Source: a bacterium
GTDB lineage: Bacteria; UBP15; UBA6099; DSWB01
NCBI GenBank assembly: GCA_020061125.1
Contig: JAGUYV010000270.1
Span: 1 to 11,128 of the forward strand
Direction of reading: 5' to 3'
DNA length: 11,128 bases
The position numbers and the translations under genes are program-made. The notes under the pieces are model-generated. The model was not told where the DNA came from and did not search any database. It saw only the letters and a list, made by a program, of their open reading frames with translations. Every line of letters begins with the position of its first letter. Position 1 is the stretch's first letter. This document shows, one piece after another, positions 1,291 to 9,061 of the stretch.

Positions 1291-2184
1291 ATGAAAAAAC
1301 TGTATGCAACACTCACGCTGCTGATGGGTGTTTGCCTGTTGCCGTCCATGGCCATGGCCGAAGGCACGGTGGGCAGCGTGTTTCTGCTGGTGGGTACGGA
1401 CGCCCGGTGCGAAGGCATGGGCGGCGCGTGCATCGCCACGGTCAAAGGTTCTCCGGCGGTTTCCTACAACCCCGCGGCCATGGCCGAAAGCTCCGGCCAG
1501 TCCGCCAGTTTCATGCACAATGAAACCGTGCTGGATTTGAGCCAGGAATACATTTCCTATGTGAGCAGCTATGGCGGAACCGCCTGGGGCGGCAGCCTTA
1601 TTTATTACGATATGGGTTCCCAGCAGCGCTACACAACCGACAACTTGTCCAGCGGATCGTTCAGGCCCAAGAGCTACGCGTTCACCATCGGATACGGCAA
1701 ACAGGCCAACAAACAGGTGTCATGGGGCCTGGCCGCCAAGTATGTGAAGGAAGAAATTGACGACGCCGCGGGCACGGCCTTCGCCCTGGATGCGGGCCTG
1801 CTCTACAAGCCCTCGAATTCCAACTGGCGCTTCGCGGGCGTTTTGAGCAACTTCGGCACCAAAATCAAAGTGGGTTCGGTTTCCGATCCCCTGCCCCTCA
1901 CCTTCAAGGCCGGCGCCGCGTACACCATGCCCCGCATGCCCCTCACGCTCACCACAGATGCTTACTTCATCAAAAACGCGGACCCCGAATACCACTTCGG
2001 CGCCGAGTATTTGATCTCCAATTACATCGGCGTGCGCGCCGGTTACAATTCGGACGACGACCTGGACAACGGGTTCACCTTCGGACTCGGGTTCTACCAG
2101 CAGCAGTTCGGCGTGGACTATGCCTATATCCCCATGGGCGTGTTCGGCGATTCGCACCGGTTCACTCTGTCCGCGAATTTCTGA
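1291..2184 (+). CDS. PorV/PorQ-family outer-membrane beta-barrel protein
   Basis: A 297-residue exported protein. Residues 1-23 form a signal peptide (Lys-Lys, hydrophobic core, AMA cleavage before Glu24). Just after it comes the family signature: RCEGMGGACIA at about 39-49, then SPAVSYNPAAMA at 54-65. This gMGgA...d.sA...NPA pattern marks the PorV/PorQ (UPF0164, FadL-like) group. The rest is alternating amphipathic strands rich in Tyr, Gly and Asn, ending in Phe297, the usual barrel recognition residue. It is smaller than Bacteroidota PorV, which plugs the SprA translocon and shuttles type IX cargo. Many relatives in other phyla have no assigned role. The next gene encodes an SprA-like giant barrel, which makes partnership plausible. 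It has its own extended -10 promoter and a strong terminator, so it is probably monocistronic. Family call good; function inferred. Confidence 0.82.
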   Translation: MKKLYATLTLLMGVCLLPSMAMAEGTVGSVFLLVGTDARCEGMGGACIATVKGSPAVSYNPAAMAESSGQSASFMHNETVLDLSQEYISYVSSYGGTAWGGSLIYYDMGSQQRYTTDNLSSGSFRPKSYAFTIGYGKQANKQVSWGLAAKYVKEEIDDAAGTAFALDAGLLYKPSNSNWRFAGVLSNFGTKIKVGSVSDPLPLTFKAGAAYTMPRMPLTLTTDAYFIKNADPEYHFGAEYLISNYIGVRAGYNSDDDLDNGFTFGLGFYQQQFGVDYAYIPMGVFGDSHRFTLSANF

Positions 2185-2209
2185 CGCCGCAGACTCTCAC
2201 GAAAAATAC

Positions 2210-2259
2210 AAAAACAGGCGCCCCTTGCAAGAGGGGCGCTTTTCGTTGCCTGTTTTTTT
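2210..2259 (+). terminator. Nested two-stage intrinsic terminator
   Basis: The inner hairpin GCGCCCCTT (2218-2226) pairs with GAGGGGCGC (2231-2239) around a GCAA tetraloop and is followed by TTTT (2240-2243). An outer pairing, AAAAACAGGC (2210-2219) with GCCTGTTTTT (2248-2257), brackets the inner hairpin, shares two bases with it and ends in seven T residues. Either one should stop transcription coming from the PorV-like gene. Confidence 0.88.
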
Positions 2260-2269
2260 CCCCCGTGTG

Positions 2270-2275
2270 TATAAT
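2270..2275 (+). promoter_or_regulatory. -10 box for the SprA-like gene, probable leaderless start
   Basis: A perfect TATAAT ends six bases before the ATG at 2282. The usual distance from -10 to +1 would place the first transcribed base at or next to the start codon. There is no purine-rich ribosome site between terminator and ATG, so a leaderless mRNA is the simplest reading. Confidence 0.5.
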
Positions 2276-2281
2276 TATCTA

Positions 2282-5200
2282 ATGCACAGCCCGCGCGTCG
2301 CGCCCGGAATTCTCCTTGCCGCACTGGCCGCGTTTTTGTTTGCGCCATCGTCCGCCATGCGCGCGCGCGCGGCGCAGTCCCCGGCTTTTTATTCCAACAT
2401 GATTATGGATTTCAACACGGGCAAGCCCGTGTTCGTGCAAACGCCAGACGGCGATGTGTCCGGCCGCCTGTATGATCTGGCGCCCGGGGATCGCCGCATT
2501 CTGGTCGTGCCTTCGCGCGTGGCTGCACCCCTGGCCGCTTACACCGGAGTTCTGGACGCGGACCGCAACGCCACGGATTCAAGCGGCATGCTCCGCGCCC
2601 TGGGCGCGGCCGCGGCCATCGAACCCCTGTCCATGCCCTACTTCGAAAATCTTCTCCAATCCGCTCCGGACCAGGCTCCGCAGTCCGGCCCCGCTCCGCC
2701 ATTTGGACAGTCTCCGCAGGATCAAGACGGGGACCGGCAGGATCGAAAAATCAAATTCGACATCCGCGGCTACCGCTACATCAAATTCCGGCAGTACAGC
2801 TCATCGGGGGATTCGCAGACATTTCTCTCGCAGAACGGGCTGTTCACCTACGGCGACACCATCGAGCAGGGCACCAGCCTGCAAATCTCGGCCAAGCGCG
2901 ACGACATCGAGCTTTCTGGAACCATCAACGAGCTGCCCCTGCAGGAGCGCGACCTGGCTTTCGACATCCTCTACGGCGCATACGGCGTCAAACTCGGCGA
3001 CTTCAATTCCGAATTCAAAGGCGGCACGCTGGCCTCGCTCAACAAGCGCATCACCGGCGCAGAAATCCTCTACGAATCGCCCAAATACGATTTCGGATTC
3101 GTGTCCTCGCAGGCGCGCAGCCAGCCACGCACCATCAGTTTCAACGGCAACAACACCCACGGCCCCTACGACCTGAACACCTTTGAAATCGTGGCCGGCA
3201 GCGCGCAGGTGCTGCTCAACGGCCAGCCCATGCCCGAACACATGTACGATCTCGATTATTACGCGGGCCAGATCTCCTTCTGCTCCACCACCCTGCCCCC
3301 GAAATGCACACCCATAAAAACCTCGGACACCGTGCAGGTGACCTTCGAGCAGAAGCTGCTGCTGTCACTCACCGCAGGCAATCTGCAGGGTTTCAGCGGA
3401 GCGTACAAACTGCCCGGGCAAAAAGGAAAAATCGGAATGGCCTGGCTGACGCAGGAGGCAAACCGCGCCGCGCAGAGCGCACGAAGAAACAACACGGAAA
3501 CCTTCTCCGGAGCGCAACTCCTGGCCCAGGGCGCGACCGAGGAACAGCAGCGCATCATTTTCCTGGACCCGCCCAACAGCCGTTTCACCTCCGCGGGACT
3601 CGAATTCATCGTCAGAAACACTGTGACCGTGCACAGGAACGGACAACTCCTGGATCCGGTTTCAGATTTCAGCATCCCCTACAGAGGCTACGCCTCGGGC
3701 CGCATAGACCTGGCGCAGACGCCCTCTACCGCGGACTCGTTCACGGTGAATTATTCCTATTATGTGGATGACTTCATCAATGTAAGCCAGCAGGAGGAAA
3801 TCCGCGAAACCGGGGACATCGTGTTCACGCTCCAGCGCTCGCAGGTGTTCGCTGGCTCCGAGGTCGTTCACTACTGCACCAACCCCACCTGCACAGGCCC
3901 GGATCTCCTGTCCCCCGGCCCGGCCGCGGATTATGAAATTGACGAAACGAACAACACGCTCATCATTCACTCCGTGAAACGCCCGAACGAGATTGACGGC
4001 GCGTTCCTGCAAATCACCTACTACTATGTGCCCTCCGAAGCGCCCGAGGCCACGGACTTCGATCACACCGTGCGCAACATCTTCGGCGCATACAAGATCG
4101 GCGGCAACACAAGCATTGAATTCGAAAGCGCCACCAGCAACAGCGACGCCGCTAAAACGCCCATCCAGGTCATGAACGAAGTCGTGGCGCGCCCGGCCGC
4201 GGACATTACCTGCCCCGCCACGCTCACTCCCGCGCCCGAATGCCAGTACATTCTGGCCAACACCAAAATCGAGGAAAACTCCGAATCCATCCGCATCAAC
4301 AACAACCCGATCACCCTGCGCCGCGGCGCGGACTACACCCTCGACGCCGACACCTCGCGCCTCACCTTCACAGGAGGCGTCACCATCCCCGCGGGCGCCG
4401 TGGTGTACGCCAACTACCGGTACAATCCCGACATAGATCTTGGCCTGGTCACCGGCAACGCCACGCGACTCACCGCGACCACCAAACTGCGCAACATCTC
4501 TCTGACCGTTTCAAAGCACGGCGCCGACCCCTTCTTCGCGCCCATCGGCGGCAACACCACCCTCGAAACCAGCCGCCTGGACACCACTCTGTCCTTTCCT
4601 GTTTCAGAAACGCTCACCATTGACGCCGTGCGCTCGAAATTCAAAACCGCGGAAGACATTTACGAAACCCACAACACCACCACACGCGACAACACCACGC
4701 GCATCACCTGGTCCCCGGGCGGCCGCTCCTGGCTCCAGAGCGCGGCCTGGTCCTTCGGCGGCACGGACACAAGCGACGACCGCCCCACGCCGGCCACGGA
4801 CAACACGCGCCGCACGCGCTCCCTGGAATTCGACATCCTCGTCCCGAAGTTCAAGAACATGAAGTTCAACACCTCCTTCGGGTCCGAGCAGTACACGGAC
4901 AACACCGCGCTCACGGACAACACGAAATCCTCGTTCAGCAACATGGCCCTTTCCTACAAGCCCCGCAACGAACTCTCCCTTGACCTCACCATCCAGAAGA
5001 CCGGCGTGGACTCGACAGGCCCCACGGGAAACAATTCGAGCGCCAACACCGCGCGCAGCATGCTCCTCACCTGGCAGCCCGTTCCTCTCATCACGCTGAC
5101 AGCGGACATCAACTCGCAACACCAGGCAAACTCCAGCGCGGACATCGAGGACACCACCATAGACACCACCACCGTGCGCCTCACCACGCTCCCCTTCTGG

Positions 5201-5866
5201 AGAATTCGCGTGTTCACCTATGGTCTCACCCAGCAGGACCGGCCCAGCCAGTTCACGGGCGGCACCCAGAGCAATGTGCAGAATGTCTCATTCACCACGG
5301 ACGCGGGCAACGGCGTCTCCATTACGCCCACGCACACCATTTCCAGTTCCTCCTCGGCTTACACCTCTTCCAAAACCACGCTCGATTCCATACGCGTGGA
5401 ATACCTGCCTGCGGAGCAACCCTGGGAAGCCTCGCTTCTCACGGAAACAAGCGGCACCAGCAGCCTTTCCTCAACGGCCGCGCAATCCAACACGGACACG
5501 AACCGGCTTTCCTGGGATCTCAAATACAAATTCACTCCCTACACCAGCATCCTGTACCGCAACAGCAACAACAGCACGACGCACAGAAGCGAAACGATCT
5601 CCACGAACTCCGAACAGCGCCACACATTCCAGTTCGAGCACCAGGTCCAGAACAAATGGGTCCTGCGGGCCAGCTACATCCTCTTCGACCGCAGCGCCGT
5701 GTTCGACACTTCCGAGCGCAACTTGGAAATCAATTCCGAATACCGCCTGTCGGAAATTCTTTTCTGGAACTTCAATTACCGCATCATAGGATACGACTCC
5801 CCGCAGCGCCCGGAAACCAGCCACGACGGCCAGATCCTCGAAACCGAACTCCGGCTTCAGTTCTGA
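2282..5866 (+). CDS. Giant SprA-like outer-membrane beta-barrel / surface protein
   Basis: A 1194-residue protein. Residues 1-31 are a signal peptide with a hydrophobic core at about 9-20. An N-terminal globular part covers 35-120, and a Pro/Gln/Asp-rich linker about 125-155. From 158 to 300 come barrel-type strands with YGVKLGDFNSEFKGGTL, LNKRITGAEILYE and NGNNTHGPYDL. I recognise these motifs from SprA-like and related giant barrels that lead into DY modules. Four such modules follow (303-355, 441-493, 521-583, 661-713). Residues 720-1194 are Thr/Ser/Asn-rich alternating strands ending in Phe1194. Bacteroidota SprA is about twice as long, so this would be a reduced or distinct relative. Exactly six cysteines exist, in three tight pairs. 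The start at 2282 is chosen for the signal peptide; the open frame extends upstream to 2120, but across the terminator. No Shine-Dalgarno is visible. Alternatives: an orphan surface adhesin or transporter. Outer-membrane location is likely, the SprA relation is moderate inference. Confidence 0.75.
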   Translation: MHSPRVAPGILLAALAAFLFAPSSAMRARAAQSPAFYSNMIMDFNTGKPVFVQTPDGDVSGRLYDLAPGDRRILVVPSRVAAPLAAYTGVLDADRNATDSSGMLRALGAAAAIEPLSMPYFENLLQSAPDQAPQSGPAPPFGQSPQDQDGDRQDRKIKFDIRGYRYIKFRQYSSSGDSQTFLSQNGLFTYGDTIEQGTSLQISAKRDDIELSGTINELPLQERDLAFDILYGAYGVKLGDFNSEFKGGTLASLNKRITGAEILYESPKYDFGFVSSQARSQPRTISFNGNNTHGPYDLNTFEIVAGSAQVLLNGQPMPEHMYDLDYYAGQISFCSTTLPPKCTPIKTSDTVQVTFEQKLLLSLTAGNLQGFSGAYKLPGQKGKIGMAWLTQEANRAAQSARRNNTETFSGAQLLAQGATEEQQRIIFLDPPNSRFTSAGLEFIVRNTVTVHRNGQLLDPVSDFSIPYRGYASGRIDLAQTPSTADSFTVNYSYYVDDFINVSQQEEIRETGDIVFTLQRSQVFAGSEVVHYCTNPTCTGPDLLSPGPAADYEIDETNNTLIIHSVKRPNEIDGAFLQITYYYVPSEAPEATDFDHTVRNIFGAYKIGGNTSIEFESATSNSDAAKTPIQVMNEVVARPAADITCPATLTPAPECQYILANTKIEENSESIRINNNPITLRRGADYTLDADTSRLTFTGGVTIPAGAVVYANYRYNPDIDLGLVTGNATRLTATTKLRNISLTVSKHGADPFFAPIGGNTTLETSRLDTTLSFPVSETLTIDAVRSKFKTAEDIYETHNTTTRDNTTRITWSPGGRSWLQSAAWSFGGTDTSDDRPTPATDNTRRTRSLEFDILVPKFKNMKFNTSFGSEQYTDNTALTDNTKSSFSNMALSYKPRNELSLDLTIQKTGVDSTGPTGNNSSANTARSMLLTWQPVPLITLTADINSQHQANSSADIEDTTIDTTTVRLTTLPFWRIRVFTYGLTQQDRPSQFTGGTQSNVQNVSFTTDAGNGVSITPTHTISSSSSAYTSSKTTLDSIRVEYLPAEQPWEASLLTETSGTSSLSSTAAQSNTDTNRLSWDLKYKFTPYTSILYRNSNNSTTHRSETISTNSEQRHTFQFEHQVQNKWVLRASYILFDRSAVFDTSERNLEINSEYRLSEILFWNFNYRIIGYDSPQRPETSHDGQILETELRLQF
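3188..4420 (+). repeat. Four diverged DY-type beta modules within the giant barrel protein
   Basis: Protein-level repeats at residues 303-355, 441-493, 521-583 and 661-713. The shared pattern is: strand, N-G-x (for example LLNGQPM, HRNGQLL, RINNNPI), a DY-like turn (YDLDYY, SDFSIPY, ADYEID, ADYTLD), a strand like G-x-I-x-F, then a strand ending V-x-Y/F-x-Y. Modules 1 and 3 carry short inserted cysteine loops, and a third such loop precedes module 4. DNA identity between copies is low, so these are old duplications. Confidence 0.6.
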
Positions 5867-5947: not shown

Positions 5948-6412
5948 TTACGCCCAGCCCTTGAGCCAGATGGTGATCACCAGCAGGCTGGCGAAGGCGA
6001 TGATCACGAGCGACCGCGAGAAAATGCCTTCGGCGCGCTCACGGCCCGAGTTTTTCCAGGTTTCATCGTAAAGCGCGTCGTCCGCCAGGTATTCGCCGGG
6101 GATGAAGAATCCAAATGCGTGATCAATCGAGCAGATGGCGCGCTGGATGTCGCAGTGCCGCTTGTAGTTTTTGATCAGGTGGTAGCACTGCATATTGGCG
6201 ATGACGATGACGAGCACGGTGGCCAGCGCCCTGGCCGCGCCCGAATTGAGCGCCTGCCGCAGTCCGGGATGATACAGCACAAACACAATGCCCAGGGTGT
6301 AAAACAGCACGGACACCCCACCGGTCACAAACTCCGAGCGACGCCGGTACAGCAGTTCCTGCTTGTGCGCATTGTATGCCGTGGTCAGAATCTGAACCTT
6401 GTCCATTTCCAT
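5948..6412 (-). CDS. Small three-helix membrane protein of unknown function
   Basis: A 154-residue protein not recognised as a known family. It has a charged N-terminus with an RRR cluster (23-25). Predicted transmembrane segments are about 27-47, 61-80 and 130-150. Between the second and third is a roughly 50-residue hydrophilic, His/Cys/Asp-containing domain that by the positive-inside rule could face either side. The ATG at 6412 (MEMDKVQ) is preceded by GAGGAGG at ten bases; a second in-frame ATG at 6406 is 16 bases away and less likely, and the upstream ATG at 6454 has no ribosome site. The gene is convergent with the giant barrel gene and divergent from the foldase gene, so it is a lone transcription unit. 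Hydrophobicity and a clean ribosome site argue it is real. Confidence 0.72.
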   Translation of the reverse strand: MEMDKVQILTTAYNAHKQELLYRRRSEFVTGGVSVLFYTLGIVFVLYHPGLRQALNSGAARALATVLVIVIANMQCYHLIKNYKRHCDIQRAICSIDHAFGFFIPGEYLADDALYDETWKNSGRERAEGIFSRSLVIIAFASLLVITIWLKGWA

Positions 6413-6531
6413 GCCCGCGGGGCCTCCTCGGCGACAATATGTTCGTGGATACAAATTTTCATCATCCTATAACAACCATGCAACATTGGCAAGCCCCTCG
6501 AAAGGGCGCGGAAATGTCCCGGGAGCCGCCA

Positions 6532-6683: not shown

Positions 6684-8276
6684 ATGGTCGAGCTGCTCAA
6701 AAAACGCTGGTTCCAGGTGGTGGGCACAATCGTGCTCCTGGCCGCGTTTTCGGTTGTGTATTACAAATTCACAAACAAGAAGCCCGAGGAGCCGACGAAT
6801 CTGATAGCCGATGTGTGCGGCGAGAAAATCACGCGCCTGGAATTCCAGACCCATGTGCGCCGCCGCACCCAGCGCGTGTACCAGAAAGAAGGCATGCTCC
6901 GCGGCTCCGACCAGTTCAGCATCCGCCTTTTCGTGTTCCGCTCCCTGTTCAACGATAAGCTGCTCAACAAGATCGCCCGTGAGATGAAGATCGAGGTCAA
7001 ACCCGAAGAAATTGACGAGCGCATCGCACAGATAAAAGAACAACTTCAGCACCCGGACAAGGATTACGCGTTCAGCCTGTTCCTGGAAATGGGCGGGTAC
7101 GGGCACGGCCCCGAGGCCATGGGCCAGTTGCGCGAAGACCTGCGCCTGGAAATTCTGGAGCAGAAAATCGCCGACGCCAAGTTCCCCACGGACAGCGCGG
7201 AGTTTGAAATTTCCGACAGCGAGCTTCAGGATTACATCCCCACCAGGCGGCTGCAGCAGATTTATTTTGCCATAGACCCCTCGCGCACCCTGTCGCAGGA
7301 CATCAACGAAGCCTCGGCCAAGATGATGGACCGCGCGGACGAAGTGTACGCAAAAGCCGCGGCCAACCCCGCGGACCAGGAGCTTTTCGGCACCCTGGCC
7401 ATCCAGTATTCCATGGAGCCGCAGGCCGCGGCGCGCGGCCACATCGGCTGGGTCAGCAAGGGTATCGTCACCGCCAAATTCTGGGAAAATGTCAAAAACC
7501 TGGAGCCGAACCAGATTACGCGCCCGTTCATCTCCGAGGCGGGCATTCACATCGTGCGCTGCGTGGACACCGCGAATCCCGGCGACCGGCTCTATGAAAC
7601 CTACAAGGATGTCATCCGCTTCCGACTGCAATTCAAAAAACAGAAGGCACGGTTCGCGGCCTGGTTCACCGAACAGATCACCAAGATGCACGACCAGGAC
7701 TGCGTCAAGGTTTACGACGACTATCTGTTGGCCGTGCGCTACGAGGCCGAGGGCAAGATAGACAAGGCCATCGAGCACCTCAAGAACGCCGCGCGGCAGG
7801 AATCGCAGAATCCCTATTACCAGGTTCACATCGGCAAACTGCTGGCGCGGCAGAACAATCGCGAGGACGCGCTCATGGCCTTCCGCAAAGCCACGGAGAT
7901 GGCCCCGCGCGATCCTTATGTATTCTTCGAGCTTGGCTCCGCGTATATGGAATACGGGGACATCGAAAAAGCGCTCCGCGAATTCCGCAAGTCTTCGGAC
8001 CTGGCGCGGCTCGACCCGGAAATTCACAACCGCCTCGAAAAAATCTACACCGGCCTTGGCATGCTCGAGGAAACCGACGAAGAGCACCGCCGCTATCTGC
8101 ACGCCATCCAGTTGCGCGCTCCCAAGGAGGCGCAGGAAAAAATCGAACAGGCCCTGCCCGGCGACGACCGCATGCTCCAGCAGCCGCCAGAGACCCTCAT
8201 GCCCGACATGCGCGCGCCCATGCCGTCCCAGGACACCCTGCCCGAACTGCGCCCGCCGGGCGCCCCGTCACCCTGA
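6684..8276 (+). CDS. Membrane-anchored parvulin-type peptidyl-prolyl isomerase with C-terminal TPR repeats
   Basis: 530 residues. A short basic N-terminus and one transmembrane helix (about 9-28) anchor it in the inner membrane, with the rest in the periplasm. Residues 40-170 form a SurA/PpiC-like chaperone region opening with DVCGEKITRLEF. A parvulin rotamase domain follows (about 189-295): RRLQQIYFAIDP, then LFGTLAIQYS, GHIGWVSKG, ITRPFISEAGIHIVRCVD. Residues 343-475 are three to four TPR repeats, and the tail from about 495 is Pro-rich. The family folds outer-membrane and secreted proteins, catalysing proline cis-trans change. TPRs suggest docking to a partner. The ATG has AGAAGG four bases upstream and a good promoter behind it. 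It is first in a probable operon with the phosphoesterase (29-base gap). The parvulin and TPR calls are strong; the combination is less usual than plain PpiC or SurA. Confidence 0.88.
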   Translation: MVELLKKRWFQVVGTIVLLAAFSVVYYKFTNKKPEEPTNLIADVCGEKITRLEFQTHVRRRTQRVYQKEGMLRGSDQFSIRLFVFRSLFNDKLLNKIAREMKIEVKPEEIDERIAQIKEQLQHPDKDYAFSLFLEMGGYGHGPEAMGQLREDLRLEILEQKIADAKFPTDSAEFEISDSELQDYIPTRRLQQIYFAIDPSRTLSQDINEASAKMMDRADEVYAKAAANPADQELFGTLAIQYSMEPQAAARGHIGWVSKGIVTAKFWENVKNLEPNQITRPFISEAGIHIVRCVDTANPGDRLYETYKDVIRFRLQFKKQKARFAAWFTEQITKMHDQDCVKVYDDYLLAVRYEAEGKIDKAIEHLKNAARQESQNPYYQVHIGKLLARQNNREDALMAFRKATEMAPRDPYVFFELGSAYMEYGDIEKALREFRKSSDLARLDPEIHNRLEKIYTGLGMLEETDEEHRRYLHAIQLRAPKEAQEKIEQALPGDDRMLQQPPETLMPDMRAPMPSQDTLPELRPPGAPSP

Positions 8277-8305: not shown

Positions 8306-9061
8306 TTGAAATTCATTCTCTTTTCAGATGTCCACGGCAACCTCGAGGCCTTTGACACCTTTCTCGAACGCATCGAGTCCATCCAGCACGACCGCATTTA
8401 CAACCTGGGCGACATCATCGGATACGGCGCCAACCCCAACGAGTGCATCGAGATCATGATGGAGCGCGACATCCCCAGCGTGGTGGGCAATCACGACGAT
8501 GTGGTGCTCGACAAGTACGAGCCGGAGATGTTCAACCCGGATGCGCGCCGCGCCGTACTCTGGTGCCGCGACCAGCTCACGGAAATGAACCGGGACTATC
8601 TGCGGGAACTCAAGGACTTCATCTGGATTGATTCCATGCTGGGCAAGGTGCTGATCGTGCACGGCAGCCCCATGGACAAGGACGAGTATGTGATGAGCCG
8701 GTGGCATGCGGAGCGCGCGTTCGTGAACATGATGACGCGCGACATCGCGGTGGCATTCGTGGCGCACACGCACCAGCCCTGCATCTGGGCGCAGACCCCG
8801 GACGGCGCGGCGGAATTCATGCCCCCGCCCGAGGACGGCAGCCCCGTGGCGCTGAACAAGTCCGCCAAAGCTATCGTGAATGTGGGCAGCGTTGGGCAGC
8901 CCCGGGACGGCGACCCGCGCGGCGGATTCGTGGTGTGGGACGATGTGGCCCATGTCATCGAGTTCCACCGCTTTAACTATCCCATTTCCCAGGCGCAGCG
9001 AAAAATCCGCGAGGCAGGCCTGCCCCGCTTCCTGTCCGAACGCCTGGCCGGAGGCTTTTAA
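8306..9061 (+). CDS. Calcineurin-like metallophosphoesterase
   Basis: A 251-residue cytosolic phosphoesterase with the full set of metal-binding motifs: Asp8 and His10 in FSDVHGN, Asp36 in LGDIIGYG, Asn62-His63-Asp64 in GNHD, His119 in VHGSP, and His154/His156 in AHTH. The C-terminal NVGSVGQPRDGDPR is typical of the bacterial branch of short predicted phosphodiesterases (COG0639/YfcE-like). Such enzymes use two metal ions to cleave phosphomono- or diesters; the substrate here is not evident. Between 160 and 180 there is a Pro-rich insertion (MPPPEDGSP) ahead of the last motif. It follows the foldase by 29 bases with no promoter between, so it is probably cotranscribed. It begins with TTG. Confidence 0.92.
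   Translation: MKFILFSDVHGNLEAFDTFLERIESIQHDRIYNLGDIIGYGANPNECIEIMMERDIPSVVGNHDDVVLDKYEPEMFNPDARRAVLWCRDQLTEMNRDYLRELKDFIWIDSMLGKVLIVHGSPMDKDEYVMSRWHAERAFVNMMTRDIAVAFVAHTHQPCIWAQTPDGAAEFMPPPEDGSPVALNKSAKAIVNVGSVGQPRDGDPRGGFVVWDDVAHVIEFHRFNYPISQAQRKIREAGLPRFLSERLAGGF

Follow-up and report, generated by a model that had tools for sequence, protein, structure and literature searches.

A PorV-family protein and a half-length SprA-like barrel encoded side by side in candidate phylum UBP15: a probable compact type IX-like outer-membrane pair

Two adjoining genes of an uncultured bacterium in candidate phylum UBP15 probably encode the outer-membrane components of a compact type IX-like export system; the larger of the two proteins is homologous to SprA but only about half as long. 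They lie in an 11,128-nucleotide stretch of DNA (the window), which belongs to a 4.1-Mb assembly (G000). Six genomes of the same order (G001–G006) are most closely related to it, giving seven UBP15 genomes in all. The phylum was assigned through these relatives, as GTDB-220 records of their order include UBP15_UBA6099. Homology, fold match, conserved adjacency, and the pairing of PorV genes with genes for type IX-like C-terminal domains (CTDs) in the same genomes were computed. A pore, a lateral gate, PorV docking, cargo passage, and an energy source are inferred only. The initial annotation proposed a smaller homologous translocon in another phylum. This is supported by the homology and fold shared with SprA, the PorV adjacency, and the UBP15 host, but secretion, a PorV interface, and a motor have not been shown. 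Both open reading frames exist as it described them, and the features of the window are as follows.

177–1010: CN_hydrolase gene
1291–2184, + strand: PorV/PorQ-family outer-membrane protein, 297 aa, with a signal peptide, candidate cargo shuttle (NF033709, Pfam PorV, PDB 6h3i_F, orthologues adjoining the barrel gene)
2218–2243, + strand: terminator-like G+C-rich hairpin followed by TTTT, between the PorV and barrel genes (pattern only)
2246–2275, + strand: promoter-like TTGCCT-18-TATAAT, separated by 6 bases from the barrel ATG (pattern only)
2282–5866, + strand: half-size SprA-like giant β-barrel protein, 1194 aa (Foldseek, VIA-align, and hhalign against SprA)
2282–2743, + strand: signal peptide and low-confidence N-terminal region of the barrel protein, residues 1–154 (pLDDT under 50)
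2744–3157, + strand: N-terminal barrel strands, residues 155–292, matching the SprA N-terminal strands (hhalign 82%, E = 1.1e-5; reversed control 0.1%)
3149–3361, + strand: first GPY/DY module, residues 290–360, common to SprA (hhalign 97.9%, E = 3.9e-13; reversed 0.2%; local TIGR04189 matches in relatives)
3362–4441, + strand: middle part, residues 361–720, barrel strands with additional DY modules between them (79–94% by hhalign against the SprA module; DSSP)
4439–5863, + strand: C-terminal barrel, residues 720–1194, with 25 long strands and a terminal F (DSSP of the model; merged family against the SprA C-terminal barrel, E = 1e-5)
5948–6454, reverse strand: small open reading frame
6684–8276: SurA-like PPIase with TPRs
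8306–9061: phosphoesterase, after which a lipoprotein-like open reading frame and RecD2 are listed

As initially stated, no other type IX component was found in the window by Pfam and NCBIfam scans. The claim of separate promoters is plausible given the hairpin and the promoter-like motif between the two genes, which are sequence patterns only. The spacing of TATAAT to the ATG makes a leaderless barrel transcript possible. An operon with the upstream CN_hydrolase gene or the downstream PPIase/TPR gene was rejected, as neither adjoins the barrel gene in the relatives.

The barrel protein has a signal peptide and a C-terminal F. GPYDLN is located at residue 294 and YDLDYYAGQISF starts at residue 322, with three further modules; these GPY/DY motifs, pointed out in the initial annotation, are real and conserved across the barrel family. 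The family has 4–5 copies per UBP15 genome, and its tree contains four old lineages, each spanning the order, of which the window's lineage A is supported at 99/98. An AlphaFold model of the window barrel was obtained from 21 sequences with a pLDDT of 73.6 and low confidence up to residue 154. DSSP assigned about 40 long strands continuing to the end of the protein, though closure and the exact count are not derivable without coordinates. The description of the barrel as reduced accordingly fits its length (1194 aa vs. some 2000 aa or longer), while its strand number does not bear it out. Nor does the strand count of the model fit an ordinary 22- or 26-strand barrel, part of what would have refuted the proposal, as it is far above these values (closure not shown).

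The relation of this barrel to SprA is not detected by standard family models. TIGR04189 (SprA/Sov), whose equivalog threshold is 200 bits, gave no match to the window barrel at E up to 1, and within the order it produced only local matches to the DY module of relatives (best 34.9 bits, E = 3.7e-9). The SprA/Sov length criterion (at least about 1,800 aa, central region included) was also missed, with approximately 575 SprA columns unmatched. The barrel thus fails the SprA equivalog test and is classed as a variant. In Pfam and NCBIfam, the barrel had no matches except weak phage-tail ones on the DY module, far under the cut-offs, and a direct PDB sequence search with the barrel family was discarded as it gave a chance hit only. 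A SprA profile was constructed by aligning proteins from 20 other genomes and was compared by hhalign, in which the DY module alone and the N-terminal strands alone matched SprA with the scores listed above, while reversed profiles stayed under 1%. The barrel family merged with relatives of approximately 1,100 aa matched SprA columns 154–683 at 98.5% (E = 1.6e-15) and columns 1259–1954 at 82% (E = 1e-5), for which the best reversed E was 0.49. The profile–profile comparison, suggested initially as a check, was hence significant and colinear at both ends, with reversed controls near 0.5. E-values from single hhalign pairs are rough, and a reversed family profile (A1) scored highly against its forward form in the barrel region, so that matches of the barrel alone need caution. 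On these alignments, the protein is read as a SprA homologue lacking about 575 central columns.

The fold comparison pointed to the same protein. Using the window barrel model as the query, Foldseek ranked four SprA structures first with E-values of 1.1e-13 (8gl6) to 1.1e-10, followed by MtrB at 2.5e-8. VIA-align paired 646 barrel residues with SprA (6h3i_A) at 5.0 Å, extending over residues 154–1194 of the barrel and 132–2401 of SprA. The Z value of this alignment (17.3) was tied with those of small barrels, and the highest Z was obtained for MtrB (20.6). Ordinary barrels (TonB receptors, AlgE, and MtrB) were nevertheless rejected as better matches, since they aligned fewer residues at higher rmsd than SprA, only about 240–460 residues at approximately 7–17 Å. 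A paralogue from another lineage (model pLDDT of 79.1) also gave SprA first in Foldseek (1.4e-15) and in VIA-align (Z of 19.7, 628 residues at 7.1 Å; 708 residues at 7.7 Å for 8gl6). The two models have alignment rows in common and are not fully independent. TM-scores were low (0.31–0.40; 0.33–0.40 in the Foldseek comparison of the window barrel model). Structure prediction therefore identified SprA as the best Foldseek match for two family members, with an end-to-end alignment.

The 297-aa protein has a signal peptide and a GMGGA...NPA motif. It scored 173.7 bits with the PorV/PorQ family model NF033709 (cut-off 90) and 33 bits with Pfam PorV (cut-off 27), and an alignment of four orthologues matched the PorV structure solved within the SprA complex (6h3i_F) at E = 1.5e-18. 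Its assignment to the PorV family, already made in the initial annotation, is consequently not due to chance. It did not reach the cut-off of the PorV equivalog NF033710 (84.2 bits vs. 250), nor that of the PorQ equivalog. The protein is hence like the PorV/PorQ/PorV2 shuttle family in its full-length match, signal peptide, and motif, but unlike its named members in the equivalog scores. PorV-family matches number at least three in every UBP15 genome.

In G002, G004, and G006, just as in the window, the gene immediately before the orthologous barrel gene is that of PorV, although identity to the window proteins is only 47% for PorV and about 32% for the barrel, and the flanking genes differ. 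In G003, both genes are at contig ends in an order compatible with adjacency across the break. The two genes are on different contigs in G001, where other genes precede the barrel gene, and adjacency was not assessable in G005. Immediately before the PorV gene in G002, G003, G004, and G006 is a gene for a large protein whose C-terminus is a FlgD-Ig/type IX-like domain. This arrangement is general in the order, as 22 of the 23 assessable UBP15 PorV genes are directly downstream of a gene for a type IX-like CTD-ended protein, where four weak partial matches and one gene truncated by a contig end were left out. The sole exception is the PorV gene of the window, and its lack of an adjacent CTD cargo gene counts against the proposed explanation. 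The C-termini encoded upstream of PorV match the CTDs of PorU, PorZ, and TIGR04183, except for a group of 600-aa proteins that was scored only by a CTD profile built in this analysis, itself seeded with that group. Three UBP15 CTDs passed the TIGR04183 cut-off, and those of the window's own genome match the PorU CTD and FlgD_ig while remaining under it. Paralogous barrel genes are also immediately preceded by genes for CTD-ended proteins in G002, G003, G004, and G006. Giant surface-type proteins of 3,300–3,900 aa were observed in UBP15 as well (L046:6333-16280 and L164:1659-13256), of which the L164 protein, encoded upstream of PorV, is CTD-ended. In G005, a 2,967-aa protein with a partial match to the anammox S-layer (Kustd1514 family) is encoded directly downstream of a CTD-ended protein (L211:3911-12814).

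Canonical SprA was found in none of the seven UBP15 genomes, all of which have PorV. Among 145 diverse genomes, SprA was detected at E ≤ 1e-20 in 39, and PorV was present in all of these. PorV alone is no proof of a translocon, since strong PorV matches but no SprA match were obtained in about 11 genomes from outside UBP15. Peptidase_C25 proteins were found in five of the seven UBP15 genomes. The three that were scanned scored 130–157 bits with NF033707 (PorU; cut-off 420), covering only part of PorU without its CTD part. The search for type IX C-terminal domains that had been proposed for the source genome was thus positive in the genome and its order, beside PorV genes, and was accompanied by these peptidases. 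GldM (TIGR03517) was detected neither in the seven UBP15 genomes nor in the SprA-bearing genomes sampled. The only genome with GldM, a strong match, was G068, in which no SprA or PorV was found at the thresholds used, which limits these absence calls.

Half-size relatives are not restricted to UBP15. The barrel profile matches proteins of 1,050–1,230 aa in many SprA-bearing genomes, and relatives of approximately 1,100 aa are homologous to the barrel family over 760 columns (E = 3.6e-24; reversed 0.012). At seven loci (L254–L259 and L270), a CTD protein, PorV, several genes, and a half-size SprA relative are encoded in that order. At five of them, the CTD protein also gave a C25 match, while L255 and the truncated gene of L270 showed the CTD alone. 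In L258, the first gene scores 567 bits, above the PorU cut-off; an M6-like inactivated protease carrying a CTD is encoded in between, and an Omp85/BamA-like gene follows. These relatives differ from the window in the Omp85 gene at L258 and in their host genomes, which mostly also have full SprA; their DY module is often near the N-terminus. No name or description was found for the PorU–PorV–half-size SprA clusters or for the relatives of approximately 1,100 aa, and no paper on half-size SprA was found in the literature on SprA-like proteins and SprA paralogues, in which subscription papers were not covered. An apparently undescribed short form of the SprA export gate hence seems to be widespread.

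The resemblance to SprA could in principle be no more than a shared repeat module on top of a general similarity of large barrels. The DY module is indeed the strongest sequence signal, barrel composition alone can score, as the reversed A1 profile indicates, and the TM-scores are low. We consider this quite unlikely, because the N-terminal strands match SprA without the module (E = 1e-5), the C-terminal barrel does so at the same level where reversed controls remain near 0.5, and no other large barrel ranks as high as SprA in Foldseek with either model. The two genes could also be coincidental neighbors, a FadL-like protein of the PorV family and an unrelated large barrel without joint function, to which the terminator and promoter patterns between them and their separation in G001 (with G005 not assessable) would conform. 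Such coincidence has very little to recommend it, as the adjacency is kept from the window to G002, G004, and G006 despite the divergence of the proteins and the differing flanks, and both proteins are homologous to a known interacting pair.

A more serious, though still unlikely, alternative is that the barrel belongs to the SprA superfamily but is no longer a translocon, serving for example as a scaffold or anchor for exported β-propeller/Ig proteins or as a polysaccharide pore, with export performed by PorV and others. The 4–5 paralogues per genome in four old lineages resemble surface proteins more than one core machine, half-size relatives co-occur with full SprA in many genomes, and AlgE is among the next VIA-align matches. 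The AlgE alignment, however, covers only about 280 residues. No other SprA was found in the UBP15 genomes, the PorV adjacency and the CTD genes beside some paralogues fit export, and half-size relatives occur in PorU–PorV clusters.

A half-length export gate served by PorV, the reading preferred here, can be compared with the system of Flavobacterium johnsoniae, in which PorV docks at the lateral opening of SprA, a 36-strand barrel, binds the cargo CTD inside with its loops, and, according to the proposed mechanism, departs together with the cargo (PMC10994853). The UBP15 barrel would be an outer-membrane protein of about 40 strands that keeps the N-terminal strands, DY modules, and C-terminal barrel of SprA, and the PorV-family protein would be its shuttle. 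The scheme would be that of F. johnsoniae, except that the barrel would be shorter and the PorV shuttles would be dedicated ones, an inference without interface, pore, or secretion data. The barrel is like SprA/Sov, the Bacteroidota type IX translocon (6h3i, 8gl6; TIGR04189), in the order of its parts, in its best structural match, and in the PorV-family partner encoded close by. It is unlike SprA/Sov in being about half as long without the 575 or so central residues, in having no full-length TIGR04189 match, in its number of paralogues, and in the absence of a detected GldM motor. Type B cargo is known to have a cognate PorP/SprF shuttle encoded by the next gene downstream (PMC12618676), and the UBP15 arrangement of a signal-domain cargo gene followed by a shuttle gene is similar. 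In contrast to that system, UBP15 has a PorV-family shuttle, and its CTDs resemble those of PorU, PorZ, and type A cargo together with FlgD Ig-like domains. Whereas a single PorV serves all type A CTDs in F. johnsoniae (PMC12618676), several PorV copies are encoded per UBP15 genome, nearly each with its own CTD neighbor.

A broader reading, which we put forward only tentatively and do not regard as established on balance, is that UBP15 has a pared-down type IX-like system lacking both GldM and SprA proper. The single SprA/PorV machine would there be replaced by four or five half-size gates together with several PorV shuttles whose genes are each paired with that of a CTD cargo, and half-size SprA would be a general undescribed second class of translocon across many phyla. 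According to a 2024 paper, no type IX genes occur outside the FCB phyla (PMC11285876). The presence in UBP15 of a SprA homologue of half length, together with PorV and CTD proteins, and of its relatives in PorU–PorV clusters elsewhere would help to define the minimal export gate of SprA, would widen the range of type IX systems, and would offer a smaller protein for structural work. The PorV–CTD gene pairing points to dedicated shuttles for type A-like cargo, as are known for type B cargo (PMC12618676). In several lineages, the PorV family seems to consist of shuttles paired with their cargo, as a CTD-ended protein is also encoded directly upstream in 17 of 20 PorV loci (L274–L293) of two unrelated genomes, G064 and G051.
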